From Lachnospiraceae bacterium (GTDB lineage Bacteria; Bacillota; Clostridia; Lachnospirales; Lachnospiraceae), in contig JAUNDG010000005.1 of the NCBI GenBank assembly GCA_030526195.1, positions 51,165 through 115,164 on the forward strand: a stretch of DNA of 64,000 nt, given 5' to 3'. The notes under the pieces are model-generated. The model did no database searches and was not told where the DNA came from. It saw only the letters and a program-made list of their open reading frames with translations. How positions within the stretch are numbered: position 1 is the first letter of the stretch; every line of letters begins with the position of its first letter. This document shows, piece by piece, positions 45,451 through 58,973 of this stretch. The translations under genes were made by a program, and so were the position numbers.

Positions 45451-45470
45451 AACTGACTGTCTGGTCAGTT
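45451..45470. promoter_or_regulatory. TetR-type operator 1
   Basis: AACTGACTGTCTGGTCAGTT, arms AACTGAC/GTCAGTT. It agrees with operator 3 (53482) at 18 of 21 positions when flanks are included. It lies about 100 bases before the promoter of corrinoid pair 1. The TetR gene at 52655 is the likely ligand. Confidence 0.7.
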
Positions 45471-45568
45471 AAATCCAAAAAGTATCGTAAATTGTTGTGC
45501 TTTTTTTACAAGAACATAAATGTAAAAGGGATACATTCGCCAAAGTTGTCTAAAGACACATAAACAAA

Positions 45569-45865: not shown

Positions 45866-45920
45866 CAAGTACCGGCGCACTTTTTACCGTTATGTGCGGC
45901 GGGACTTACCTTGTTTTTTT
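45866..45920 (+). terminator. Riboswitch expression platform (intrinsic terminator)
   Basis: CAAGTACCGGCGCAC pairs with GTGCGGCGGGACTT, closed further by CTTG, then a run of seven T. A preceding hairpin (GGACATAA/TTATGTCC, 45842-45862) may act as the antiterminator partner. Indicates control at transcription elongation. Confidence 0.75.
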
Positions 45921-45954
45921 CTAAAGGAAAACGGTTTAAGAGAAAGGTGGAAAC

Positions 45955-46644
45955 ATGGAAGAAATCTTAAAGAAAATTGGTGATCTGGTAGCCGAAGGCG
46001 AAGACGAAGACGCTGTAGAAGCTACTCAGGAAGCTCTGGATATGGGTATTGACCCGATGGTTATCCTGCAGCAGGGCGCCAGCAAGGGTATGGACCTTAT
46101 CAACGAACAGTACAACAACGGCGAAGCTTTCCTTCCGGAACTGGTTCTGGCCGGTGACGCTATGACAGCTGTTATCGATCTGCTGTTTGCTAACATGGAC
46201 TCTGATGCTGCTGCCGGCACAAAGCTTGGCACAATCGTTATCGGTCAGGCTAAGGGTGACGTTCACGATATCGGTAAGAACGTTTGCTCCGCTCTTCTGG
46301 CTTGCAACGGTTTCGAAGTTCACGATATGGGTACAGACGTTGCTCCGAAGGCTATGGTCGAAAAGGCTGCCGAAGTTGGTGCTAACATCGTTATCCAGTC
46401 TACACTGCTGACAACATCTCTTCCGTACATCGCTGATACACTTCAGTACATCACAGATACAGGCCATCGTGATGATATGTTCTTTGCTTGCGGCGGCGGC
46501 CCGGTTACTCCGGAATTCGCTACAAATATGCAGGCTGACGGTTGGTCAAGATCTTCCTTCGACTGCGTTGAAATGTGCAAGAAGCTTGTGACAGAATGCA
46601 AGCCGGGCAAGCAGCCGATCGTTATCGTTAACTCTGAAGGCTAA
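45955..46644 (+). CDS. Corrinoid protein of methyltransferase pair 1 (MtmC-like)
   Basis: 229 residues: an N-terminal helical cap (about 1-88) and a B12-binding Rossmann domain with the DxHxxG motif DVHDIG, lower-axial ligand H104, then QSTLLTTSLPY and GGGPVTPEFA. It carries a methyl group on cobalt between a substrate methyltransferase and an acceptor enzyme. Strong codon bias, GAGAAAGGTGG ribosome site. It is the first gene behind the cobalamin riboswitch and 88 bases upstream of its methyltransferase, separated by a hairpin without T-run (46680-46701). Confidence 0.94.
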   Translation: MEEILKKIGDLVAEGEDEDAVEATQEALDMGIDPMVILQQGASKGMDLINEQYNNGEAFLPELVLAGDAMTAVIDLLFANMDSDAAAGTKLGTIVIGQAKGDVHDIGKNVCSALLACNGFEVHDMGTDVAPKAMVEKAAEVGANIVIQSTLLTTSLPYIADTLQYITDTGHRDDMFFACGGGPVTPEFATNMQADGWSRSSFDCVEMCKKLVTECKPGKQPIVIVNSEG

Positions 46645-46732: not shown

Positions 46733-48190
46733 ATGAATAATTACAAGGTTCAGATTCTTCTGAATAACCTTGACAAGGCTTACAGAGGCCCGATCGTCCC
46801 GATGAAAGAATGGGATACCAAGATTATTCCGAAGACAATCAAACACGTTCTGAAAGAGCACAACCTGCTGGGTACTCTGGATGAAGAAAATCCGATCAAC
46901 ACAGATCCGGAACTGGCTGATGAATACTTCAAAGCCGGTTGGGACCTGGCTATCGAACTTGGTCTTTACTGCGAAGATACTGAACGTGTCATCCACGTAA
47001 CAGAAGAAGAACTGTATGAATCCATGAGAAACTATCAGGCTGTCAACATTCTGGGTGATGGCCAGGATACCGTTATCATGAAACCGAGAAGACCGGAAGA
47101 TCCGTATCCGCCGCTTCTTGCTGCTTCTCTGGGTATCGTTTGCTCAGAAGAAAACTATATCCCGCTCGTTGAGGGTATCGTTAAATACAACAAGCTGGTC
47201 GACGTTCTTCACGGACCGACACTGGCTACAGTCTTCGGTCGCCCGATTCGTTCCGGTACACCGTATGAAACTCTGGCCGGTAACTACGAATCCGAACTGA
47301 AGAAAGAAGCTCTGTGGAGAGCCGGCAGACCGGATATGGCTAAGACAGGTGTTAACTCTGCCGTTACAGAATTCGGTCACTTTGGTGGTGCTGCTTCAGT
47401 TGCAGGCCGTGGCAACGTTACACAGTCTCTGTGCCCGGTTGAACTTAAGTGTACATTCTCCAACTTCCACAGAAATATCATGGGTCTGAACTATGGCCAC
47501 AAGCTGAGAACAGGTGGTTTCTCCTACATCGGCGGTTATGCCGGTAGACCGGAAGGCGCTGCTGTTGCTTGTATCGCCAACGACCTTCTTCTGACAACAA
47601 TCCTGCAGGCCGACTATGTCAGCTCCTATGTCTATGACATCCAGCTGTTCGGTAACTGCGGTCGCAAGGCTGTTTGGGCTAACTCTGTTTCTACACAGGC
47701 TGTTTCCCGTAACACAAACATCATGAGAAACAAGATCGTCAACGAAACAGGCGGTCCGTGCACAGAAATGTTCATGTACGAAGCTGCTGTCGGTCTTATG
47801 AACCACAGCGTTTCCGGTGCTTCCAAGACAACACAGCCGAGATCTGCCGGTGGTCGTTTCACAGACTACATCACTCCGATGGAATGCTGGTGGTGCGGCA
47901 ACGTCTTCAAGAGCACAGCTGGTATGTCTCTGAAGCAGGCTAACGAAATCGCTAAGAAGATCCTTCCGAAGTACGAACATAAGCTTGGTAAGCTGACAAA
48001 AGAAGATCAGGGTCTCCCGGTCAACGAATGCTTCGACCTGGCAAACCATGTACCGAAGGAAAACTATCGCGAACTTTACACAAGAGTCCGCAACGAACTT
48101 ATCGACCTGGGTATGCCGCTTAACAACGTATTCGGTGAATGGTATGACGAGTTCCTTAAGAAACGTAACGTTTACAGCTACGGTTTCTAA
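46733..48190 (+). CDS. MtmB-family (monomethylamine methyltransferase-like) protein without pyrrolysine, pair 1
   Basis: 485 residues, no in-frame stop. It aligns along its length with archaeal MtmB, not with MttB: KAGWDLAIELGLYCEDTERV, TPYETLAGNYESELKK, AGRPDMAKTG, GGYAG and GGPCTEM. In Methanosarcina MtmB the pyrrolysine (202) lies in GRPGMGV-Pyl-GPE; here the position is T205 (codon ACA 47345-47347). Neighbouring Pyl-contact residues also differ (MtmB Glu205, Glu259 and Gln333 correspond by my alignment to Asn, Gly and Ile). I infer a corrinoid-dependent methyltransferase whose substrate is not ordinary monomethylamine. Pairs with the corrinoid protein upstream. Very strong codon bias; AAAAGGAGAACAG ribosome site. 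Confidence 0.85.
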   Translation: MNNYKVQILLNNLDKAYRGPIVPMKEWDTKIIPKTIKHVLKEHNLLGTLDEENPINTDPELADEYFKAGWDLAIELGLYCEDTERVIHVTEEELYESMRNYQAVNILGDGQDTVIMKPRRPEDPYPPLLAASLGIVCSEENYIPLVEGIVKYNKLVDVLHGPTLATVFGRPIRSGTPYETLAGNYESELKKEALWRAGRPDMAKTGVNSAVTEFGHFGGAASVAGRGNVTQSLCPVELKCTFSNFHRNIMGLNYGHKLRTGGFSYIGGYAGRPEGAAVACIANDLLLTTILQADYVSSYVYDIQLFGNCGRKAVWANSVSTQAVSRNTNIMRNKIVNETGGPCTEMFMYEAAVGLMNHSVSGASKTTQPRSAGGRFTDYITPMECWWCGNVFKSTAGMSLKQANEIAKKILPKYEHKLGKLTKEDQGLPVNECFDLANHVPKENYRELYTRVRNELIDLGMPLNNVFGEWYDEFLKKRNVYSYGF

Positions 48191-48674
48191 AGAAATAGCG
48201 TAAGCCTGAGGTTTACCTGAAAAATCACACATGTTTATAACAATGCCGACCCACCTCGGTGGGCCGGCATTGCTTAACACAACACTTGTTTTTTAGCGGG
48301 AATAGGTATTGTGTAGGAAGTACATTCCGATACCGCGGATATTCTTCCGACCTGTCGGCCATTTGCGGCGGTCGATGGGAGAGGAGTGGTTTTGCGACCA
48401 TGGCAAGGCCATCACCTCAGTTACAAGACAATCAATCACCGGGGGCTGTTATTAGCGGCTTCTGTCCCAGACAGAAGAAACAGAGTCGGATATTGTCCTG
48501 TAATTTTGTTAAGCAGAAAGCAAAGGAAATGAGTGGGCATCACTTTACGAAACCCAATTTCCCCGTGCTTCACCAAAGCACGATTTTCTGAACCTTGCAA
48601 AGATACACTATGCACGGCTTGGTGGGAACATTGCGTAGCAATTTGATGCTCCTTCTTCATTAAGGAGGAGAAAA
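48191..48674 (+). other. Long non-coding leader before the NCS2 permease, possibly structured RNA
   Basis: After a terminator (48242-48271) about 400 bases lack a credible gene but are rich in hairpins: CCGA-CCTG-TCGG, TGG..CCA and ATGG-CAAGG-CCAT around 48390-48412, CTTCTGTC-CCA-GACAGAAG near 48460-48478, CGTGCTT-CACCA-AAGCACG near 48568-48586, ATTGC-GTA-GCAAT near 48629-48641. It ends at the ribosome site AAGGAGGAG of the permease. No known riboswitch core (purine, PRPP, guanidine, T-box) was recognised. Confidence 0.5.
48242..48271 (+). terminator. Terminator-like hairpin after methyltransferase 1
   Basis: AATGCCGACCCACC and GGTGGGCCGGCATT form a 14-bp stem with one mismatch and a 2-base loop. 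The following T-run is weak. Confidence 0.6.
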
Positions 48675-50129
48675 ATGGGTAACAATAGCGGTAAGTATAC
48701 ATCTCCGTTCGATCTGGACGGTAGAATTCCTTTTGGTCAGGCTATCACATATGGTCTGCAGCACATCCTTTCTATGTTTGCCAGCAACCTGACAGCACCC
48801 CTTATCATTCTGGGTGTTCTGGATATTTCAGCAGGTTCAACACTTGGTCTTGCGATCCTTCGTAATGCCATGTTTATCGCTGGTTTCGTCACTCTGATTC
48901 AGCTTTTCCCGATCTGGAGAATCGGTGGCCGTCTGCCCCTGGTTATGGGTACAGAATGCGGTCTGATCGGTGTTTATTGCTCCATCGCTGTCGCCATGGG
49001 CGGCGGTGAAACCGGTTACGGCGCACTGCTTGGTGCCTGCCTCATCGGTGGTCTGGTCGAAGTTATTATCGGTATGATCTTCAACAAGATTCAGCGGTTC
49101 TTCCCGCCCATCGTTGTTGGTGTCGTACTGACAGGTGTTGGCGTTTCCCTTATGAGCGTTGGTGTTAATATGTTCGCCGGCGGTCAGGGTGTTGCAGACT
49201 TCGGTTCATGGGAGAACCTGCTCCTGGCTACTATCACACTGGTAGCTGTTCTTATCTTCAAACAGTGCTTCAAGGGCTTCATCTCCAACATCTCTATCCT
49301 TCTGGGTATCATCGTTGGTTATGTTTCTGCCATCATCATGGGTATGGTGGTTCCGAACACAATCATCGTTGATGGTGTTGAAATCACAAAATCATGGGTT
49401 ATGGACTGGCAGGTCGTCGCAGATGCGGCTTGGTTCTCACTGCCGACTCTGATGCCGGTTAAGCTGTCCTTCCACCTTCAGGCTATCATCCCGATCGCCA
49501 TCCTGTTCTGCGTACTGACAATGGAAACCATCGGTTCTGTTACAAGTACAGTTCGTCAGGGTGTCGGCCGTGAACCGAACGAACGGGAAATCCCGGGCGC
49601 TCTGTTCGGCGATGGTCTTGGTTCATCCCTTGCTGCATGCTTCGGTGTTCTTCCGAACACAGTTTTCACAACAAACGTTGCTATTGTCAATTCTACAAAG
49701 ATCGTTAACCGTTATTCACTGGGTTGGGGTGCCGGCCTTCTGGTTCTGGCCAGCTTCTGTCCGAAGCTCCTGGCTCTGTTCTCAATCATCCCGAGTGCTG
49801 TTCTGGGTGGTGCCGTTACAATGATGTTCGGTATGATCCTCTTCAGCGGTATGGAACTGATTGCAGAAGACGGCTTCACTGGCCGTAACGGTCTGATCGT
49901 CGCTCTGTCATTCGGTGCTGCTTATGGTCTTGGTGATATCCCGGGTGCCCTTTCTGGTCTTCCGTCATGGTTCACCTCTACAATCGGCGCCGGCGGCGTT
50001 CTTCTTCTGACAGTTGTCTGCTTCGTACTGAACCTCATCCTGCCGAAGGATAAAGAAAAAGTACAGAAGGAGCCGGATGGTATCTATGAATGCCTTCTGA
50101 CACCGGATTCAGATATAGAAGAAAAATAA
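48675..50129 (+). CDS. NCS2-family nucleobase:cation symporter
   Basis: 484 residues, about 14 membrane helices. NCS2 (UraA/XanQ/UapA) features: FGQAITYGLQHILSMFASNLTAP at the N terminus, the GTECGLIGVY region, FFPPIVVGVVLTGVG, and the substrate-site block FGDGLGSSLAACFGVLPNTVFTTNVAIV. Members import uracil, xanthine, urate or related compounds with H+ or Na+; specificity is not evident. Codon bias equals that of the methyltransferases on both sides. A 400-base leader precedes it and a terminator follows. Confidence 0.9.
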   Translation: MGNNSGKYTSPFDLDGRIPFGQAITYGLQHILSMFASNLTAPLIILGVLDISAGSTLGLAILRNAMFIAGFVTLIQLFPIWRIGGRLPLVMGTECGLIGVYCSIAVAMGGGETGYGALLGACLIGGLVEVIIGMIFNKIQRFFPPIVVGVVLTGVGVSLMSVGVNMFAGGQGVADFGSWENLLLATITLVAVLIFKQCFKGFISNISILLGIIVGYVSAIIMGMVVPNTIIVDGVEITKSWVMDWQVVADAAWFSLPTLMPVKLSFHLQAIIPIAILFCVLTMETIGSVTSTVRQGVGREPNEREIPGALFGDGLGSSLAACFGVLPNTVFTTNVAIVNSTKIVNRYSLGWGAGLLVLASFCPKLLALFSIIPSAVLGGAVTMMFGMILFSGMELIAEDGFTGRNGLIVALSFGAAYGLGDIPGALSGLPSWFTSTIGAGGVLLLTVVCFVLNLILPKDKEKVQKEPDGIYECLLTPDSDIEEK

Positions 50130-50331: not shown

Positions 50332-51630
50332 ATGGTTAAAACCGATTTGCGTTACCAAAGCTATATCAAAATTCTTGAAGAGGAACTGGTGCCGGCTTTA
50401 GGCTGCACAGAACCCATTTCGCTGGCCTATGCGTCGGCAAAGGCAAAGGACATTCTGGGGTGCCATCCGGAGCATGTGATCCTGGAAGTCAGTGGCAGTA
50501 TCATCAAGAATGTCAAAAGTGTTATTGTTCCCAATACTCATCATCTGAAAGGGTTGGAAGCGGCCTGTGCCGCCGGTATTGTCGCAGGACAGTCAGAAAA
50601 GGAACTTGAAGTTATTGCAGACGTCAATGATGAAGAAAAGTGCCGGATCGATGATTATCTGAAACAGGTTAAGATCGATGTAAAGCATGTGGAAACCGGG
50701 CATGTTTTCGACATCACCGTGAAAGCTTATGCGGGAGCCCATGAATCATTGGTGCGCATCTGCGATTACCATACCAACATTGTCCGTCTGGAAAAGGATG
50801 GTGAGGTGCTGTTTGAAATTGATCCTGAAGTATCCAAACCTGTAAAAGAAGAGCGGGTTGACCGGAGCCTTCTGACTATGGTGGATATCTGGGATTTCGT
50901 CGAATCACTGGATACCAATGATGTGAAACCCATTCTGGATCGTCAGATTCGTTACAATATGACCATTGCCGAGGAAGGACTTCTCGGCGATTATGGCGCC
51001 AACATCGGCAGTGTTCTGCTGCAGACCAACGGCCAGCATGTGGCTAACAGAGCCAAGGCTTATGCCGCCGCCGGATCCGATGCGCGTATGAACGGCTGTG
51101 AATTGCCGGTTATCATCAATTCCGGCAGTGGTAATCAGGGGATTACCTGCTCGGTGCCGGTCATCGAATATGCCAAGGAACTTCATTGTGGGAAGGACAA
51201 ACTCTATCGTGCCCTGACCTTGTCAAACCTGGTGGCTATTCATGAAAAAACAGGGATCGGGACATTATCCGCCTATTGCGGCGCTGTCAGCGCCGGTGCC
51301 GGAGCCGGTGCCGGGATTGCCTATCTCCAGAGCGGTGATTATGAGGCGGTGACCCATACGGTGGTCAACGCGTTGGCCATTGTGTCCGGTATCGTCTGCG
51401 ACGGAGCTAAAGCCTCCTGTGCCGCCAAAATCGCATTTTCCGTGGATGCCGGTCTTATGGGCTATGCGATGTACAGAAGCGGACAGGAATTTAAGGGCGG
51501 TGACGGTATTGTCATGAAGGACATCGAAGCCACCATTAAAGGCATTGGTCGTCTGGGTAAGGACGGTATGCGTCAGACAAACGAAGAAATCATCAACCTG
51601 ATGATCAACTCAGGTCGTACCGTGGACTGA
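50332..51630 (+). CDS. L-cysteine desulfidase / UPF0597 family protein
   Basis: 432 residues matching UPF0597 (serine dehydratase alpha-chain-like, CyuA-type): LGCTEPISLAYASAKA near the N terminus with the family cysteine, NVKSVIVPNT, INSGSGNQGITCSVPVIEYAKE and AYCGAVSAGAGAGAGIAYL. CyuA-type proteins use an iron-sulfur cluster to break L-cysteine (or serine) to pyruvate, ammonia and sulfide. Codon use is ordinary, unlike its neighbours. CGGAGGAAAAACAGC is its ribosome site; it is followed 46 bases later by a dehydrogenase gene. Confidence 0.9.
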   Translation: MVKTDLRYQSYIKILEEELVPALGCTEPISLAYASAKAKDILGCHPEHVILEVSGSIIKNVKSVIVPNTHHLKGLEAACAAGIVAGQSEKELEVIADVNDEEKCRIDDYLKQVKIDVKHVETGHVFDITVKAYAGAHESLVRICDYHTNIVRLEKDGEVLFEIDPEVSKPVKEERVDRSLLTMVDIWDFVESLDTNDVKPILDRQIRYNMTIAEEGLLGDYGANIGSVLLQTNGQHVANRAKAYAAAGSDARMNGCELPVIINSGSGNQGITCSVPVIEYAKELHCGKDKLYRALTLSNLVAIHEKTGIGTLSAYCGAVSAGAGAGAGIAYLQSGDYEAVTHTVVNALAIVSGIVCDGAKASCAAKIAFSVDAGLMGYAMYRSGQEFKGGDGIVMKDIEATIKGIGRLGKDGMRQTNEEIINLMINSGRTVD

Positions 51631-51676
51631 CCGCCGGATAACTTATATTGACAAAATGGAAAAGGAAACACATATT

Positions 51677-52639
51677 ATGAGTAAAAAGATACTGGTGCTC
51701 AATGATGCCTTCAATGAGCAGCATCGGGACAAGATCCGGGAAACCGCAGCGCCCTACGGCTACGAGGTTCATTTTTTTGAAAATGAAGAAGCGGCGCTGG
51801 CCGAGGCTTCCGGGGCGGAGATTATCTACGGCTTCGGGATCGCGCTGGTGCGAGCCGCCAAAGATCTCAAATGGCTCCATATGTCCTGGGCCGGGGTGGA
51901 TGGCTATCTGAAGGCCCGGGTGGTGCCGGATGACGTGCTCTTTTCAAACTCTGCCGGTACCTACGGCGTTACCATCGCCGAGCATGTTGTGATGACGGCT
52001 CTGATGCTGATGCGTGAGCAGATGTTCTATGGCCGTGCCATGGATCAGCGCGACTGGCAGGCGCCCAGACCTCAGAAGACCTTAAAGGATGCGCGCATCA
52101 CGATGCTGGGGGCCGGAGATATCGGCACCACAACCGCCAGACGTCTCAAAGCCTTCGAACCGGCATCCATCACAGCGGTGAACAGAACCGGTCATCATGA
52201 TGACCCGGTCTTTGATGCGGTCTATCCGCAGACAGAACTTGAACGGGTTCTGCCGGAAACCGATCTTCTGGTGATGTCACTGCCTTCGACAGCAGCGACA
52301 CAGGGTATTCTCAACAAACACACCCTGTCCCTTTTGCCTTCCGAGGCATTGGTGATCAATGTGGGACGCGGCACAGCCGTGGTGGAAGAGGATTTGGTCG
52401 AGGCTCTTAAGGCAGGCACCATTGCGGGTGCGGCGCTTGATGTGTTCTCCGTTGAACCCGTGCCGGCGGACAGTCCGCTTTGGGATACCCCGCATCTTCT
52501 GATGACACCGCATATCGCCGGCAATCTGACGGCACCCTATACCACACAGAAAAATGTGGACATGTTCTGTGAAGACCTGGTCAACTACTGTGAAGGCCGA
52601 AAACTCAAATACGAGGTTGATCGACAGCTTGGTTATTGA
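51677..52639 (+). CDS. D-2-hydroxyacid dehydrogenase
   Basis: 320 residues from ATG 51677; the earlier ATG 51656 has no ribosome site, while AAAAGGAAA within it fits 51677. NAD-binding motif GAGDIGTTTARRLK near 150, catalytic Arg in INVGRGTAV, Glu in DVFSVEP and His in MTPHIAGN are present. It reduces a 2-oxoacid such as pyruvate to a D-2-hydroxyacid. It is adjacent to the desulfidase-like gene, whose product would be pyruvate, so they may act in one chain (inference). Confidence 0.92.
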   Translation: MSKKILVLNDAFNEQHRDKIRETAAPYGYEVHFFENEEAALAEASGAEIIYGFGIALVRAAKDLKWLHMSWAGVDGYLKARVVPDDVLFSNSAGTYGVTIAEHVVMTALMLMREQMFYGRAMDQRDWQAPRPQKTLKDARITMLGAGDIGTTTARRLKAFEPASITAVNRTGHHDDPVFDAVYPQTELERVLPETDLLVMSLPSTAATQGILNKHTLSLLPSEALVINVGRGTAVVEEDLVEALKAGTIAGAALDVFSVEPVPADSPLWDTPHLLMTPHIAGNLTAPYTTQKNVDMFCEDLVNYCEGRKLKYEVDRQLGY

Positions 52640-52654
52640 TGGGGGATTTGACTC

Positions 52655-53239
52655 ATGAAAGATAAAAAGGTTGAGGAACGTATTCTCGATGCAACATTAA
52701 AGGTGGTTCGGAAAAATACCATCAGCGGGACCCGTATGCATCTTATTGCGACAGAGGCAGATCTGCCTCAGGCGAATCTGCATTATCATTACAAGACAAA
52801 GCAGAATCTGATGCTGGCCCTTCACCGGAAGGTGATCGACCGCTTCCTGCTCCTGCGGGAACGGATGAAGACAGAGAAGTCGATTCCGCTGACCGTTGAG
52901 CAGGAACTGGACATTTTCTTCGAACAGAAAAAGGTCAGTATCCTGGAGGATTCGGATTACGATATTGTGGAAATTGATTTCTGGCTGCAGGCCACGGTCA
53001 GTGAGGAATATCGGGAAATCATGAACAAGGCTTTCGAGCGCTGGGAATACGCGATCCGCTGCTTTATTGAAAAGGTCTGTCCCGATAAGTCAGAGAGCGA
53101 CAAACTGCAGCTGACTCACCTCATTTTATCGATCCTGGAGGGGGCCACCATCCAGTACCATGTCAATCCGGAGCATTTCGATGTGGATGCTTACTTCGAG
53201 TTTGGCAAGAAGTCGGTGCTGAAACTGCTGGAAATGTAA
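52655..53239 (+). CDS. TetR/AcrR-family transcriptional regulator
   Basis: 194 residues. The N-terminal helix-turn-helix reads ILDATLKVVRKNTISGTRMHLIATEADLPQ with LHYHYKTKQNLMLAL, a standard TetR DNA-binding domain; the rest is the helical effector domain. It starts 15 bases after the dehydrogenase gene. Three TetR-type palindromes flank the two corrinoid modules (45451, 53372, 53482), so it probably senses a substrate or product of the methyltransferase system. Effector unknown. Confidence 0.92.
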   Translation: MKDKKVEERILDATLKVVRKNTISGTRMHLIATEADLPQANLHYHYKTKQNLMLALHRKVIDRFLLLRERMKTEKSIPLTVEQELDIFFEQKKVSILEDSDYDIVEIDFWLQATVSEEYREIMNKAFERWEYAIRCFIEKVCPDKSESDKLQLTHLILSILEGATIQYHVNPEHFDVDAYFEFGKKSVLKLLEM

Positions 53240-53345: not shown

Positions 53346-53400
53346 TGTCTATATGGAAAAATGCACATTATTTGACTGTCTGTACAGTCAATATAGACAA
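53345..53400. promoter_or_regulatory. TetR-type operator 2 nested in a larger palindrome
   Basis: TTGACTGTCTGTACAGTCAA at 53372-53391. Outside it TTGTCTATAT (53345-53354) and ATATAGACAA (53391-53400) are also a perfect inverted pair. Lies about 45 bases upstream of the -35 of pair 2. Confidence 0.65.
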
Positions 53401-53481: not shown

Positions 53482-53497
53482 CTGACTGTTCAGTCAG
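53482..53497. promoter_or_regulatory. TetR-type operator 3
   Basis: CTGACTGTTCAGTCAG, a perfect 16-bp palindrome just downstream of the predicted transcription start, well placed to block transcription of pair 2. Confidence 0.7.
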
Positions 53498-53524
53498 TTA
53501 AAACCACTTAAGGAAAGGGTGTAA

Positions 53525-54196
53525 ATGATGGAAGAAATTTTAAAACAGATGGAAGAAGCTATTTATGATGGTGATGATGAGCTTCTCGATGAACTTATGG
53601 ATAAAGCCCTTGAAATGGGCATCACTCCGGAAGACATGATTCAGGAAGCCGGTATTAAGGCTCTTGATCGTCTGGGCGATGATTTCAACAACCTTATGGT
53701 TTTCCTTCCGGAACTTATGCTGGGCGGCGAATGCATGAAGCAGCTGCTTGACAGAGTTACACCGCTTATGGGTGGCACAAGCGCTTACATCGGCAAAGTC
53801 GTTATCGGCTGCGCTAAGGGCGACCTTCACGACATTGGTAAATCACTTGTTGCTACACAGCTTTCCGTTAACGGCTTCGACGTTATCGACCTTGGCGTTG
53901 ACGTAGCTCCGAACAAGTTTATTGATACAGCTGACAAAGAAAATGCTGATATCATCGTTGTTTCCTCACTGCTGACAACATCTCAGTATTACATGGAAGA
54001 ACTGATCAAACGTCTCGGTGATGAAGGCAAGAGAGATAAATATCGCGTTGCTATCGGCGGTGGCCCGATCTCCGGTGAATATGCTAAGAAGATTGGTGCT
54101 GATGGCTATTCTCGTACATGCTATTCAGCTGTTAAGATGGCAAAACGTCTTATGGAAATCAAACCGACTGAAGAACTGATCATCGAAAACGACTAA
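53525..54196 (+). CDS. Corrinoid protein of methyltransferase pair 2 (MtmC-like)
   Basis: 223 residues, a diverged paralogue of the pair 1 protein. Helical cap (about 1-86), then B12-binding motif DLHDIG with axial-ligand H102, SSLLTTSQYYMEE and GGGPISGEYAKKIG. Its gene has no riboswitch; it sits directly behind TetR operators 2 and 3. GGAAAGGGTGTAA precedes ATG 53525. 86 bases separate it from its methyltransferase gene. Strong codon bias. Confidence 0.94.
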   Translation: MMEEILKQMEEAIYDGDDELLDELMDKALEMGITPEDMIQEAGIKALDRLGDDFNNLMVFLPELMLGGECMKQLLDRVTPLMGGTSAYIGKVVIGCAKGDLHDIGKSLVATQLSVNGFDVIDLGVDVAPNKFIDTADKENADIIVVSSLLTTSQYYMEELIKRLGDEGKRDKYRVAIGGGPISGEYAKKIGADGYSRTCYSAVKMAKRLMEIKPTEELIIEND

Positions 54197-54282: not shown

Positions 54283-55698
54283 ATGACAAAAAAAGAAATC
54301 GACGAGATGCTGCGTGAGAAACATGGCAGAGTATTAGGCACACTGGACAGAGCCCGTACAAGCAAGAGAGTTCTTGAAAAAGAATGGGATACCAAGATTC
54401 TTCCGAAGACTCTGAAAGAAGTTGCTAAAGAATATCGTCTGCTGGGTACTTTCGATCCGGAAAATCCGGTTCCGAGCGATCCCGAACTGGCTGATGCTTT
54501 CTTCAAAGCCGGCTACGAAGCAGCTCTTCGTCTTGGCTTCTACTGCCCGGAAACAGAATCCATCATCAAACTTGATGCTGATGAACTGGCTAAGGACTTC
54601 AACAAAGCTCCGAAGGAATTCCCGGTAGGTCAGGAAGGCGTTGTTGTTAAATCACGTAGACCGTCCGACGGTGTTGCTCCGGTCTTCACAGCTCCTCTTT
54701 CCATTCAGATGAATGAAGAAGCTTATATCCCGGTAGCTCAGGGTATCGTCAGCTCCAAGCTGGTTGACTGCCAGGAAGGTCCGTCTCTGGACACTGTTAT
54801 GGGCAGCCCGATGCTGGCCGATACACCGTACGAATCATTCGGCGGTATCTATGAATATCATCTGCGTAAAGAAGCTCAGCACAGAGCCGGCCGTGATGGC
54901 ATGGGCAACACTCTGGTTTCCTCAGCTTCTACACACCTTGGTATGATGGCAGCCTTTAACCTGTATGAAATGCCGCAGATCACACTGTGTCTGAACCCGG
55001 CCTTCATGAAGGTTAACTATACAACATTCCATAAATGTATCGTTGCTAACGAACTGGGCGGCATGATTCGTTGCGAATCCCCGAACATGATCGGCGGTTA
55101 TTCAGGTGGTGTTGAAACAACAGCTCTGGCCTCCATCGCTACTGATATCCTTCAGTACCCGATCGTTGGTGCACACCTTCCGGGTTCTCCGGACTACGAT
55201 ATCCGTTACGGCGGCAACTGCGGACGTCACGGCCTTTGGGCACAGTCCATGGCTACACAGGCCATCACACGTAACAGCGACATCATCCTGATGAAGACCA
55301 TCAACCAGGTCTCCGGTCCGATGGAAGAGATGTTCTATCTTGAATCTATCTGCGGTATGGGTGCTGCTTCTGCTTCAGGTCAGGCCTTCACCATCAGCCC
55401 GCGTTCAGCCGGTGGTTCTCGTAAGAACCATCTGACACCGATCGATGCCTGGTACAACGCTGCTATCTTCAAAGGCGCTGCCGGCCTGAGCCTCGAAAAG
55501 ATGAACGAAATCTGTAAGAAGGTTCTTCCGATGTTCGAAGACAAGCTCATGAACCCGCCGAAGGGCAAATCCTTCCAGGATCTGTACAATGTCGAAACTC
55601 TGGAACCGATTCCGGAATACAGAGATCAGTATCTTAAGATGCGTAAATTCGCCGAAGATCTGGGCATCCCGATGCCGGGCGATGGCATCCTGAGCTAA
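54283..55698 (+). CDS. MtmB-family (monomethylamine methyltransferase-like) protein without pyrrolysine, pair 2
   Basis: 471 residues, no in-frame stop. Aligns with MtmB across its length: KEWDTKILPKTLKEV, FFKAGYEAALRLGFYC, TPYESFGGIYEYHLRKEA, AGRDGMGNTL, NMIGGYSGGVETTA and the C-terminal FQDLYNVETLEPIPEY, which closely matches the MtmB tail. The pyrrolysine position is T210 (codon ACT 54910-54912). A Glu matching MtmB Glu259 seems kept (before SPNMIGGYSGG), unlike in pair 1; Gln333 is not. I infer methyl transfer from a different amine to the corrinoid protein upstream. AAAGAGGAGAATTCC ribosome site; terminator follows. Strong codon bias. Confidence 0.86.
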   Translation: MTKKEIDEMLREKHGRVLGTLDRARTSKRVLEKEWDTKILPKTLKEVAKEYRLLGTFDPENPVPSDPELADAFFKAGYEAALRLGFYCPETESIIKLDADELAKDFNKAPKEFPVGQEGVVVKSRRPSDGVAPVFTAPLSIQMNEEAYIPVAQGIVSSKLVDCQEGPSLDTVMGSPMLADTPYESFGGIYEYHLRKEAQHRAGRDGMGNTLVSSASTHLGMMAAFNLYEMPQITLCLNPAFMKVNYTTFHKCIVANELGGMIRCESPNMIGGYSGGVETTALASIATDILQYPIVGAHLPGSPDYDIRYGGNCGRHGLWAQSMATQAITRNSDIILMKTINQVSGPMEEMFYLESICGMGAASASGQAFTISPRSAGGSRKNHLTPIDAWYNAAIFKGAAGLSLEKMNEICKKVLPMFEDKLMNPPKGKSFQDLYNVETLEPIPEYRDQYLKMRKFAEDLGIPMPGDGILS

Positions 55699-56189: not shown

Positions 56190-58973
56190 ATGATCAAAAA
56201 AATGGGAAAGCGCATCCTGGCGGTTGGGTTGGCCTCGCTTCTTATGTTGGCACCCCTGTCAGTCAGCGCAGCCCCTCAGGGAACGGGGGCTCAGACAGAA
56301 GCATCTGCGGACAGCGGATCGCGAACAGAAAATGACGGAACCGGCGATTCTTCAGTCAATGACAATAGTGATGAAAATGACGGCATTGACGATTCAAAAG
56401 AGGCGGGTGGTTCCGAGGCAAACCGTCCGAATGGCGGTGCCGATGGGGATTCCACCGGCGGTGAGTCTTCAGATGATCCGGTATCGGGTGATCAGGATTC
56501 AGACGGTGATCCATCAGATGATGAGTCAGAAGATGAGGACAATGGGTCCGATGAAAATGATGAAGAGTCTGATGGGACTGAAGACAAAGATGAGGACGAA
56601 GCCGGCACCGGTCTTGTGGATGAGGATGAAGCCCTCTTAGCCGCGCCGGTTCGCACCGGCATGACCATCACACCGGATTATGAGACACAGCTCACCGGAC
56701 AGGCTCCGTCCACCGGTGTCTATCGCATTCAGGTGGCTTCCGAGCCCACCTTTGCCCTGTCCATCGACGGGGATTCACTGGAAACACGGGCCAATGCCAA
56801 CATCGGCCATTTCAGCAGTACATCCGGCCAGTATTTCTACATCACCAATTGCGGCAACGGCCAGTATACCATTGAGAACATTCTGTCCGGCTGCGTGCTG
56901 GATGCCGAGTCAGCCGGCACGGCTAAGGGCACCAATATCCGCCAGTATAAATACAATGGTACGGTGGCTCAGAAATGGACTTTCAAAGCCAATGGCAACG
57001 GTTCTTATACCATCGGCGCTGCCTACTGCAACCGGGTATGGGACATTGACACCGGCCGCATTGCGGAGGGCAGTAATGTCCGGCTTTGGAGCAGCAACGG
57101 CACGAAAGCTCAGCAGTGGAGCCTGACAAAGGTCATGGACCCCCTGCCCACGGATGATTATCGTCTTAATTGCGGTGGCACAATTACGGTCAAAAATGAC
57201 AGCCTGGATAAATGTGCCAACGTGGAAACAACAGCCGATACAGCGTTATCCCGGGGCAAGCAGTTCATGGTCCGCAGCACCAACGGCGGCATGTCCTATA
57301 CGATCCGCAACCGGGCTTCGGCTATGGCCTTCGATATCGAAAATGGCGCCACAACCTCCGGCACCAACGTGCGTCAGTATAAAACCAACGGCACAGCGGC
57401 TCAGGATTGGCGGTTTGTGCCCATCGGTGGCGGCCGATACCGTGTCATTTCCATGAAGGCCCGTCTCTTCCTTTGTGTGAAGAATGGCAATGTGCTGGTT
57501 CTCGACAGTGAAGGGGCCAAAAATGCAGAGTCGATCTGGACCCTTCAGTCTGTGCCGGTCAACGTTCAGGTGCAGCCCGGCATGTACCGCATTCTGTCAG
57601 CGAAAAACAGCAATATCGGTCTTGATGTTGTCAGCGGCTGCTGGCTGAATAAGACCAACATTCAGGTTTATACGCGCACCACTACGGCCTCACAGTCCAA
57701 TCAGCAGTTTGAACTGGTGTCCACCGGCGGCGACTGGTTCCGCATCGTGAACGTGGCCACCGGCAAATGTCTGGATAAGACCGGCGGTGCCGAATCCACA
57801 GACACCAACGTGCAGTCCTACAAGATCAACGGCACAGTGGCTCAGAACTGGCGTTTTGAGGATACCGGCGATCACGACGGCAGTTATTACATCGTCAATG
57901 GGCTGGGCAAATACCTGGATATTCAGGGCGGTGTGGCTCAGAATAACACCAATGTTCAGGTGCACAAGAGTAATAAAACAGCTGCTCAAAAATGGTATCT
58001 TGAACCGACTTCATTTTCCGGCAAGGGCTGGCGCACCACCAATAGCACGGAGCGTCGTTTCTACCGTGACGGCAAATACCTCACCGGCGGCTGGCAGCTG
58101 ATCGGCGGCTATTATTATTATTTCGACAACAACGGGCTGATGGCTTACTCCACAGCCTCCAAGACTGTCAACATCGGCAATTATTATGTGGATCAGGAGG
58201 GGCGCCGCAGGAGCCGGTCCGCCGCAGACATCCTTTCAGGTGTTAAACCAGGCGGCAAGACCCTGACCAACCTGATGCAGAATGCTCTGATTCCCTGCGG
58301 CCGCGTCCTTTACATCTGGGGCGGCGGCTGGGGCGACAGCGATGCCAACAAGATCGGCTACCTGTCCAGCTGGGGCAATTTCTTCAACAGTCATGCCAAC
58401 GGCAGCTACAACCGTAACGATTACAAGTATAAGTACGGCGCCGGTTTGGATTGCTCCGGTTATATTTCCTGGGTTGTGTATAATACCCAGTTCACCGCCA
58501 ACAACCAGTTCAGCATTCTTAGCGGAAATGGTACATCCTATAACTCCACGAAGCTGGCGAACCGGATCGCTTCGCTGGGCTGGGCCACCTATTATGGCGG
58601 TGCCCCGGGCTCATACCGTCAGTTAAAGCCCGGCGATATTGTCAGTATGAACGGTCACGTCTGGATGTACGTGGGCAGCTGCTCCGACGGCTCCGGTGTT
58701 ATCGTCCACTCTTCCCCCATGGGGCAGACCTACGGCGGCGGTGTTCAGCTGGCCGGGACGGTCAATGATGCCGGTCAGGCCAACAGCGAGGGCTATCGTC
58801 TGGCGAAGGCCTACAACGAGAAATACTTCTCCTATTGGCCGTATCCCACCAACACAGCCGGCAACAGCTATCGCACATCGGCAGTGGGGTATGCCCGCTG
58901 GAACAACGATCCGGACGGTTTGAAAAATATGACAGCGGCACAGGTGCTCAACAAGCTTCTGGGCCCGCTGTAA
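56190..58973 (+). CDS. Secreted RICIN-lectin and NlpC/P60-like surface hydrolase
   Basis: 927 residues. Signal peptide (RILAVGLASLLMLAPLSVSA) to about 30, a very acidic Asp/Glu/Ser/Gly linker (about 35-150), then three RICIN-type beta-trefoil domains (about 165-315, 320-455, 460-610) with repeated NVRQYKTNGT-A-Q-W units, one choline-binding-like aromatic repeat (GWQLIGGYYYYFDNNGLMAY), and a C-terminal NlpC/P60-like domain with C755 in LDCSGYISW and H823 in NGHVWMYVG. Probably binds sugars and cleaves peptidoglycan or a glycopeptide outside the cell. The BMP lipoprotein gene follows after 10 bases. Confidence 0.85.
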   Translation: MIKKMGKRILAVGLASLLMLAPLSVSAAPQGTGAQTEASADSGSRTENDGTGDSSVNDNSDENDGIDDSKEAGGSEANRPNGGADGDSTGGESSDDPVSGDQDSDGDPSDDESEDEDNGSDENDEESDGTEDKDEDEAGTGLVDEDEALLAAPVRTGMTITPDYETQLTGQAPSTGVYRIQVASEPTFALSIDGDSLETRANANIGHFSSTSGQYFYITNCGNGQYTIENILSGCVLDAESAGTAKGTNIRQYKYNGTVAQKWTFKANGNGSYTIGAAYCNRVWDIDTGRIAEGSNVRLWSSNGTKAQQWSLTKVMDPLPTDDYRLNCGGTITVKNDSLDKCANVETTADTALSRGKQFMVRSTNGGMSYTIRNRASAMAFDIENGATTSGTNVRQYKTNGTAAQDWRFVPIGGGRYRVISMKARLFLCVKNGNVLVLDSEGAKNAESIWTLQSVPVNVQVQPGMYRILSAKNSNIGLDVVSGCWLNKTNIQVYTRTTTASQSNQQFELVSTGGDWFRIVNVATGKCLDKTGGAESTDTNVQSYKINGTVAQNWRFEDTGDHDGSYYIVNGLGKYLDIQGGVAQNNTNVQVHKSNKTAAQKWYLEPTSFSGKGWRTTNSTERRFYRDGKYLTGGWQLIGGYYYYFDNNGLMAYSTASKTVNIGNYYVDQEGRRRSRSAADILSGVKPGGKTLTNLMQNALIPCGRVLYIWGGGWGDSDANKIGYLSSWGNFFNSHANGSYNRNDYKYKYGAGLDCSGYISWVVYNTQFTANNQFSILSGNGTSYNSTKLANRIASLGWATYYGGAPGSYRQLKPGDIVSMNGHVWMYVGSCSDGSGVIVHSSPMGQTYGGGVQLAGTVNDAGQANSEGYRLAKAYNEKYFSYWPYPTNTAGNSYRTSAVGYARWNNDPDGLKNMTAAQVLNKLLGPL

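Follow-up and report, generated by a model that had tools for sequence, protein, structure and literature searches.

On the established view, the methyltransferase MtmB binds and activates methylamine by means of its pyrrolysine, around which lie Glu205, Glu259 and Gln333. The Lachnospiraceae genome studied here encodes a member of this family in which all four positions are replaced. The gene lies in a stretch of 64,000 nucleotides (the window, whose first letter is position 1) and runs on the forward strand from an ATG at 46733 to a stop codon at 48190, with 485 codons and no internal stop. In a Pfam search the protein matched MtmB as its sole family (PF05369; 235.1 bits, cut-off 25, E 1.9e-69; residues 11-461 over profile positions 5-450 of 450), with no match to MttB (PF06253), and a search of NCBIfam returned no family at E 1e-3. 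With phmmer it matched MtmB1 of Methanosarcina barkeri (1l2q/1nth; E 5.7e-44, residues 14-461 aligned), and its Thr205 stands in the column of X202, the pyrrolysine. In a 66-row alignment the places of Glu205, Glu259 and Gln333 are taken by N208, G261 and I335, and in each of the four bacterial MtmB rows with TAG the pyrrolysine, both glutamates and the glutamine are conserved. The original prediction had described an unbroken MtmB gene with Thr205 at pyrrolysine 202 and with these three contact residues replaced, and had proposed comparing the two profiles; the searches and alignments bear it out on each of these points.

The methyltransferase gene adjoins, in the same orientation, a gene for a corrinoid protein of 229 aa (45955-46644, forward strand; PF02310 63.5 bits, PF02607 57.3 bits), so that a pyrrolysine-free MtmB-family protein does stand beside its own corrinoid gene, as had been claimed. 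This corrinoid protein scores 175.6 bits against TIGR02370, below the cut-off of 215.3, and its top PDB match is the trimethylamine corrinoid protein 7xcn. About 5 kb downstream of this pair 1 lies pair 2, also on the forward strand, with a corrinoid protein of 223 aa (53525-54196; Pfam and NCBIfam) and a second pyrrolysine-free MtmB-family methyltransferase of 471 aa (54283-55698; PF05369 233.5 bits) that aligns a Thr at the place of pyrrolysine. The pair 2 methyltransferase keeps Glu259 and has S and T at the places of Glu205 and Gln333 in the 66-row alignment. The two methyltransferases are 41.9% identical and the two corrinoid proteins 40.5%. According to Pfam, PF02310 and PF02607 are present in both corrinoid proteins, whose sequences contain GDVHDIG and GDLHDIG, forms of the DxHxxG motif that we take to be the signature of B12-binding corrinoid proteins.

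Between the pairs, the forward strand encodes a permease of the NCS2 (xanthine/uracil) family (48675-50129; PF00860 241 bits), which scores 326 bits against pbuX (TIGR03173), below the cut-off of 414, and a TetR-type regulator (52655-53239; TetR_N 26.6 bits, TetR_C_6 34 bits). A serine-dehydratase-alpha-type protein (50332-51630) and a D-2-hydroxyacid dehydrogenase (51656-52639) are also encoded there, and pair 2 is followed by a reading frame of 927 aa whose start resembles a signal peptide (56190-58973). A hairpin with one mismatch, read by eye on the forward strand 3' of pair 1 (48242-48271), perhaps marks the end of the pair 1 transcript.

We propose that pairs 1 and 2 are corrinoid-dependent N-methylpurine demethylases, a reading of sequence and gene context that we hold to be moderately probable. 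The evidence comes from the relationships of the two methyltransferases, from the genes around their orthologs, from the remainder of the host genome and from the regulatory elements.

The tree comprises 65 distinct proteins, each 430 aa or longer, drawn from 101 collected entries, many of which are the same gene in overlapping loci; fragments (G462, G884 and partial genes of G459) and the later homologs in genomes G1079, G1093 and G1100 were left out. Pair 1 falls into a clade of 17 rows (clade a) and pair 2 into one of 12 rows (clade b), both at 100/100. Together with three further rows, the two clades form a set of 32 rows that is split at 100/100 from the rest, that is, from the four TAG-bearing MtmBs and from clades c and d. 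At the place of pyrrolysine, the 66-row alignment has Thr in 17 of 17 rows of clade a, while clade b has Met, Ser and Ala in three rows each, Pro in two and Thr in one, the last being pair 2. Asp302 is present in all 29 rows of clades a and b; the corresponding residue is His in M. barkeri MtmB and in the four TAG-bearing rows. We read these aligned residues as indicating a different pocket and not a decayed one. Of the 15 clade-a genomes of the tree, 10 carry clade b as well.

Members of the family are sparsely distributed. They were found in 4 of 61 near relatives (host genome counted), in 3 of 391 genomes of the class (two with a TAG-bearing MtmB, the third being the host genome), in 4 of 300 genomes of the family of G451, in 4 of 195 of the family of G453 (one a short fragment), and in 4 of 392 in an order-level search with a profile of these proteins. 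A scan of 84,980 species, with one genome per species, returned 20 loci, 11 of which are 74-89% identical to pair 1; as it used two peptide patterns, it falls short of a full census. The records in question bear the names 'Candidatus Equihabitans merdae', Clostridiales/Clostridia, Oscillospiraceae/Oscillibacter, Hungateiclostridiaceae, Treponema and Spirochaetaceae. This patchy spread suggests transfer between lineages. No match pointed to plasmid or phage carriage of the locus.

Two other parts of the family showed arrangements of their own. In clade d (L014, L094, L095, L173, L174 and L175), a membrane-protein-like gene comes directly after MtmB, and no neighbour in these six loci matched the corrinoid-protein references; the two genes form a conserved unit. 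The homologs in G1079, G1093 and G1100 have their best match in clade d and adjoin the same type of transporter, which has no family match. An Anaerolineales MAG (G459) has 21 MtmB matches, several in tandem (contigs C155, C256, C332, C348 and C361; L073-L078 and L033), and some are surrounded by corrinoid, amidohydrolase and xanthine-dehydrogenase-type genes.

To relate the clades to purine metabolism, we counted purine markers within 10 kb of each gene, using rows whose context spans 9 kb or more. Markers were a xanthine dehydrogenase subunit, a deaminase of the 8-oxoguanine or guanine type, an NCS2 permease or PucR, each matched by tblastn at no less than 100 bits; matches at least 97% identical to the reference were ignored. 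A marker was present for 13 of 14 rows of clade a and 11 of 11 of clade b, together 24 of 25, for 2 of 3 rows beside these clades, 11 of 20 other non-pyrrolysine rows (clade c and other) and 1 of 4 rows of clade d, and for none of the four pyrrolysine MtmBs and 1 of 17 MttB control loci. Markers are thus scarcer around the non-pyrrolysine MtmBs that are more remote from clades a and b. The exception in clade a, L044, showed no purine marker in 11 kb of context. The contig was too short for counting in three rows of clade a and one of clade b. The transporter next to clade d had been tried as an NCS2 marker and was dropped after two copies gave no Pfam or NCBIfam match, which lowered clade d from 3/4 to 1/4 and MttB from 2/17 to 1/17. 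The rows are interdependent, as four loci hold both clades and some come from near-identical relatives; in terms of distinct loci of clades a and b, 20 of 21 have a marker. Both rows of the window were scored through one shared permease (48675-50129).

The loci in this count had been found by protein similarity and not by context, and the marker references were drawn from those same loci. We therefore made a separate count with the Pfam domain MoCoBD_1 alone. This domain occurs within 10 kb of 18 of 42 non-pyrrolysine MtmB clusters, where 1.9 are expected; for MttB the figure is 5 of 45, where 3.6 are expected, both figures being uncorrected for contig ends. The count covers 65 MtmB genes from 22 genomes, without G462, G793, G884, G387, G442 and the genomes of the order-level search. 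The MttB list holds 68 places, with G463 scored for 43 of its 87 candidates; the MttB neighbourhoods are 20 regions, 10 of them from G463, and 17 have at least 9 kb.

Individual loci show what these counts consist of. For instance, L020 has RACE (reductive activase) on the opposite strand, a corrinoid protein, a clade-a MtmB, xanthine dehydrogenase FAD and iron-sulfur subunit types, an 8-oxoguanine-deaminase-like amidohydrolase (523 bits, cut-off 532), CobW and DUF1638. In Treponema (L025), both pairs (clades a and b) are accompanied by a selenium-dependent xanthine dehydrogenase (1381 bits, cut-off 830), UroD-type methyltransferases and a PnrA-type ABC transporter. L032 has UroD, pair a, deaminases, TetR and pair b, its guanine-deaminase type scoring 334 bits, below the cut-off of 375; the clade-b orthologs of L032/L080, L038 and L100 all come after guanine-deaminase-type and TetR genes. 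Deaminases tested from L020, L025 and L032 scored 506-526 bits against a cut-off of 532, and the 8-oxoguanine deaminase in L013 (clade c) passed it with 578 bits. A PucR-type gene is found in L027, and a PucR-type regulator adjoins some orthologs. DUF1638 recurs in the clusters (L020:15449-16135, L025:7348-7995, L136:17231-17956) and perhaps has a role in corrinoid handling. The new substrate that the original prediction had proposed for pair 1 is supported as probable.

The host genome (2.54 Mb, 96% complete) has two PF05369 matches, those of pairs 1 and 2. A profile search of it returned no MttB match, and the best PylS_Cterm match reached 23.7 bits against a cut-off of 178.15. Close to pair 1, the NCS2 permease is the only purine-type gene, and no xanthine dehydrogenase matched within 15 kb of either pair. 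A purine-type cluster lies on the same contig, about 74 kb upstream of pair 1 (C23:1166-23154). Its XdhA (808 bits, cut-off 780) and XdhB (353 bits, cut-off 310) pass their cut-offs; its XdhC (199 bits, cut-off 217) and an 8-oxoguanine-deaminase-like protein (496 bits, cut-off 532) fall below theirs. The cluster further encodes an ABC/PnrA-type transporter, DUF1638, CobW, a TetR 40% identical to that of the window, and a UroD-type methyltransferase (C23:18096-19490; PF01208 141 bits; mtaA_cmuA 117 bits, below the cut-off of 235) that shares 68% identity with its counterpart next to clade a in L032. RACE is encoded at C23:19517-21151 and, like the UroD-type gene, lies about 75 kb from pair 1. 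We infer that gene types that stand together in relatives and are split over two places in this genome work together, with the UroD-type protein and RACE acting as partners of pairs 1 and 2. CODH/acetyl-CoA synthase (CdhC) matched in 8 of 22 genomes but gave no match in the host genome, which makes it more likely that the methyl group is oxidised or used via tetrahydrofolate than made into acetate.

The regulatory elements suggest a tie between the two pairs. An 18-base palindromic motif, TGACTGWN5YAGTYA, fitted to the three sites of the window together with sites before clade-b orthologs in relatives, occurs three times in the whole genome, always upstream of pairs 1 and 2. The motif search placed TGACTGTCTGGTCAGTTA, a putative TetR operator of pair 1, at 45454-45471; TGACTGTCTGTACAGTCA, a putative operator between the TetR gene and pair 2, at 53373-53390; and TGACTGTTCAGTCAGTTA, a putative operator 25 bases before pair 2, at 53483-53500. 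Shuffles give an expectation of 0.02 for the window, and the reversed pattern used as a control gave 1 match. Among 178 loci, 14 contain the motif, namely those covering the window's own sites and L032/L080, L038/L166 and L064/L100; in L080, L038 and L100, a TetR 44-51% identical to that of the window is encoded before the pair-2 orthologs. No such motif was found near the TetR of the C23 cluster. The restriction of the motif to both pairs and its co-occurrence with TetR in relatives suggest that one TetR probably controls both pairs.

Pair 1 has in addition a cobalamin riboswitch aptamer (RF00174; 45635-45813, forward strand; 120.3 bits, gathering threshold 31.5, E 1.2e-29), placed between the putative operator and the start of the corrinoid gene. 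Between aptamer and start codon, the centroid fold shows a hairpin followed by a T run (45867-45921, forward strand) that could serve as a terminator. RF00174 also precedes the orthologous pair in both L019 and L020 and gave no match in the 14 other loci searched, 8 of which have clade-a genes. Folds at three loci gave no clear sign of whether the riboswitch turns expression on or off with B12. To our knowledge, it is unusual for a B12 riboswitch to precede an operon that encodes a B12-dependent product.

The proposed route would begin with an MtmB-family protein taking the N-methyl group off a methylguanine, methylxanthine or methylurate. The N-methylpurine would be held over cob(I)alamin without pyrrolysine, much as MttB-type proteins handle quaternary amines, and the methyl group would go to the cob(I)alamin carried by the corrinoid protein encoded next door. 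As a leaving group, a purine anion should be better than ammonia, which would make an adduct with pyrrolysine unnecessary. From the corrinoid protein, the methyl group would be transferred further, probably to tetrahydrofolate, by the UroD-type methyltransferase, whose gene stands with those for RACE and xanthine dehydrogenase on the contig of the two pairs, and the demethylated purine could then be deaminated, oxidised and fermented. The two pairs would form one regulon under the TetR encoded before pair 2, with pair 1 additionally under the cobalamin riboswitch. Because guanine-deaminase-type genes stand by some clade-b pairs and 8-oxoguanine-type ones by many clade-a pairs, methylguanines would be favoured first and methylxanthines next. 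Our belief in the purine role itself goes only somewhat beyond an even chance, the guanine deaminase and several other deaminase matches being below their cut-offs. The host's own permease, deaminase, XdhC and UroD-type protein likewise score below theirs, no gene names a methylated purine, and other N-methyl heterocycles would fit.

Such a heterocycle could be N-methylhydantoin or a creatinine-like compound, trigonelline or an N-methylpyrimidine, with the molybdenum hydroxylases, amidohydrolases and permease acting on that ring. The amidohydrolase and molybdenum-hydroxylase families are broad, and the equivalog cut-offs that the host's deaminase and permease fail to reach leave room for another ring; yet XdhA, XdhB, the selenium-dependent xanthine dehydrogenase and the L013 deaminase pass purine-specific cut-offs and a PucR-type regulator adjoins some orthologs, and we regard a non-purine ring as unlikely. 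A role as quaternary-amine demethylases for tetramethylammonium or choline seems to us quite improbable. It would follow the precedent of MtqB, a non-pyrrolysine MtmB described as a demethylase in vitro (PMC13044021), but does not account for the purine markers near 24 of 25 rows, and the pyrrolysine MtmBs, near which MtqB stands according to a figure legend of that paper, lie across the 100/100 split from clades a and b.

The pairs might instead work in the methylating direction and add a methyl group to their substrate. The system of EmtA, which is MtmB-related and without pyrrolysine, methylates estrogens with a SAM-derived methyl group, as described in PMC7448270; here, the permease, deaminases, xanthine dehydrogenase, UroD-type protein and RACE look catabolic, and, with EmtA compared by description only, we think this direction very unlikely. 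We give hardly any weight to ordinary monomethylamine methyltransferases with threonine in place of pyrrolysine. The shared Pfam family and the full-length alignment would suit them; against this, pyrrolysine, Glu205, Glu259 and Gln333 are all replaced in pair 1, the host genome has no PylS above cut-off, and the neighbourhood differs from those of the four TAG-bearing MtmBs.

Demethylation of N-methylpurines, our preferred reading, could extend beyond this genome. We put forward tentatively, at somewhat less than even confidence, that the two subfamilies, found in Clostridia, in Treponema and other Spirochaetaceae and in a dichloromethane fermenter, represent an unrecognised, O2-independent N-demethylation of purines, through which methylated RNA bases and plant methylxanthines would become available for anaerobic purine fermentation, with the co-induced pairs acting on different N-methyl positions. 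The demethylases of methylated purines that we know of are oxygenases. If the proposal is true, anaerobes would have a way to process methylxanthines and the methylated bases of RNA with B12, and the MtmB fold would acquire substrates of a chemically different class. It would also bear on the purpose of pyrrolysine, which would be needed for a poor leaving group and dispensable for a heteroaromatic anion. The purine claim is directly testable with purified proteins and commercial substrates.

Among the matches listed in a search of open-licence PubMed Central, none linked MtmB with purines or xanthine or described corrinoid-dependent or anaerobic N-demethylation of purines, and no assignment for clades a and b was found there. 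The main text of a paper on a uric acid pathway (PMC12507026) does not contain 'methyltransferase', 'methylat' or 'corrinoid'. The class of pyrrolysine-free MtmBs is already known, and what is new are these subfamilies and the link to purines.

The known systems differ from the pairs in family, substrate or direction. MtgB, MtpB, MtcB and MtyB, of the MttB superfamily, carry out pyrrolysine-free, corrinoid-dependent demethylation; unlike the pairs, they belong to PF06253, which has no match in the host genome. MtmB/MtmC of M. barkeri (1nth, 1l2q) resembles pair 1 in its PF05369 match, full-length alignment and corrinoid partner, but Pyl202, Glu205, Glu259 and Gln333 are kept there, and methylamine is an unlikely substrate for pair 1. 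The original prediction took the known pyrrolysine-free relatives to belong to the MttB family, a premise contradicted by the accounts of MtqB (PMC13044021) and EmtA (PMC7448270). MtqB of Methanococcoides methylutens Q3c is presented as the first demonstrated function of a non-pyrrolysine MtmB (March 2026), and the tree of that paper, with 1,061 pyrrolysine and non-pyrrolysine MtmBs, marks the function as unknown for those that fall into none of its named clades (PMC13044021). MtqB/MtqC is like pair 1 in joining an MtmB-family protein without pyrrolysine to its own corrinoid protein, but it comes from an archaeal methanogen and uses tetramethylammonium or choline; the published legend places MtqB near the pyrrolysine MtmBs, whereas clades a and b are split from these in our tree, which was built without MtqB. 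EmtA, an MtmB-related protein without pyrrolysine that acts on estradiol in estrogen-degrading Denitratisoma (2020), is by its description in PMC7448270 likewise accompanied by a corrinoid protein (EmtB) and a RACE-like gene nearby; there, estrogens are methylated from SAM, in denitrifying bacteria. In the dichloromethane-degrading strain DCMF, the protein whose fold change on dichloromethane is highest is reported to be a non-pyrrolysine MtmB (PMC9768040). We found eight MtmB matches in this strain (L086, L089 and L091), one with TAG. Both clades have homologs in DCMF (67% and 58% identical), one by a PucR-type gene and one near xanthine-dehydrogenase-type genes, and some of its methyltransferases may therefore serve purines, not amines or dichloromethane.
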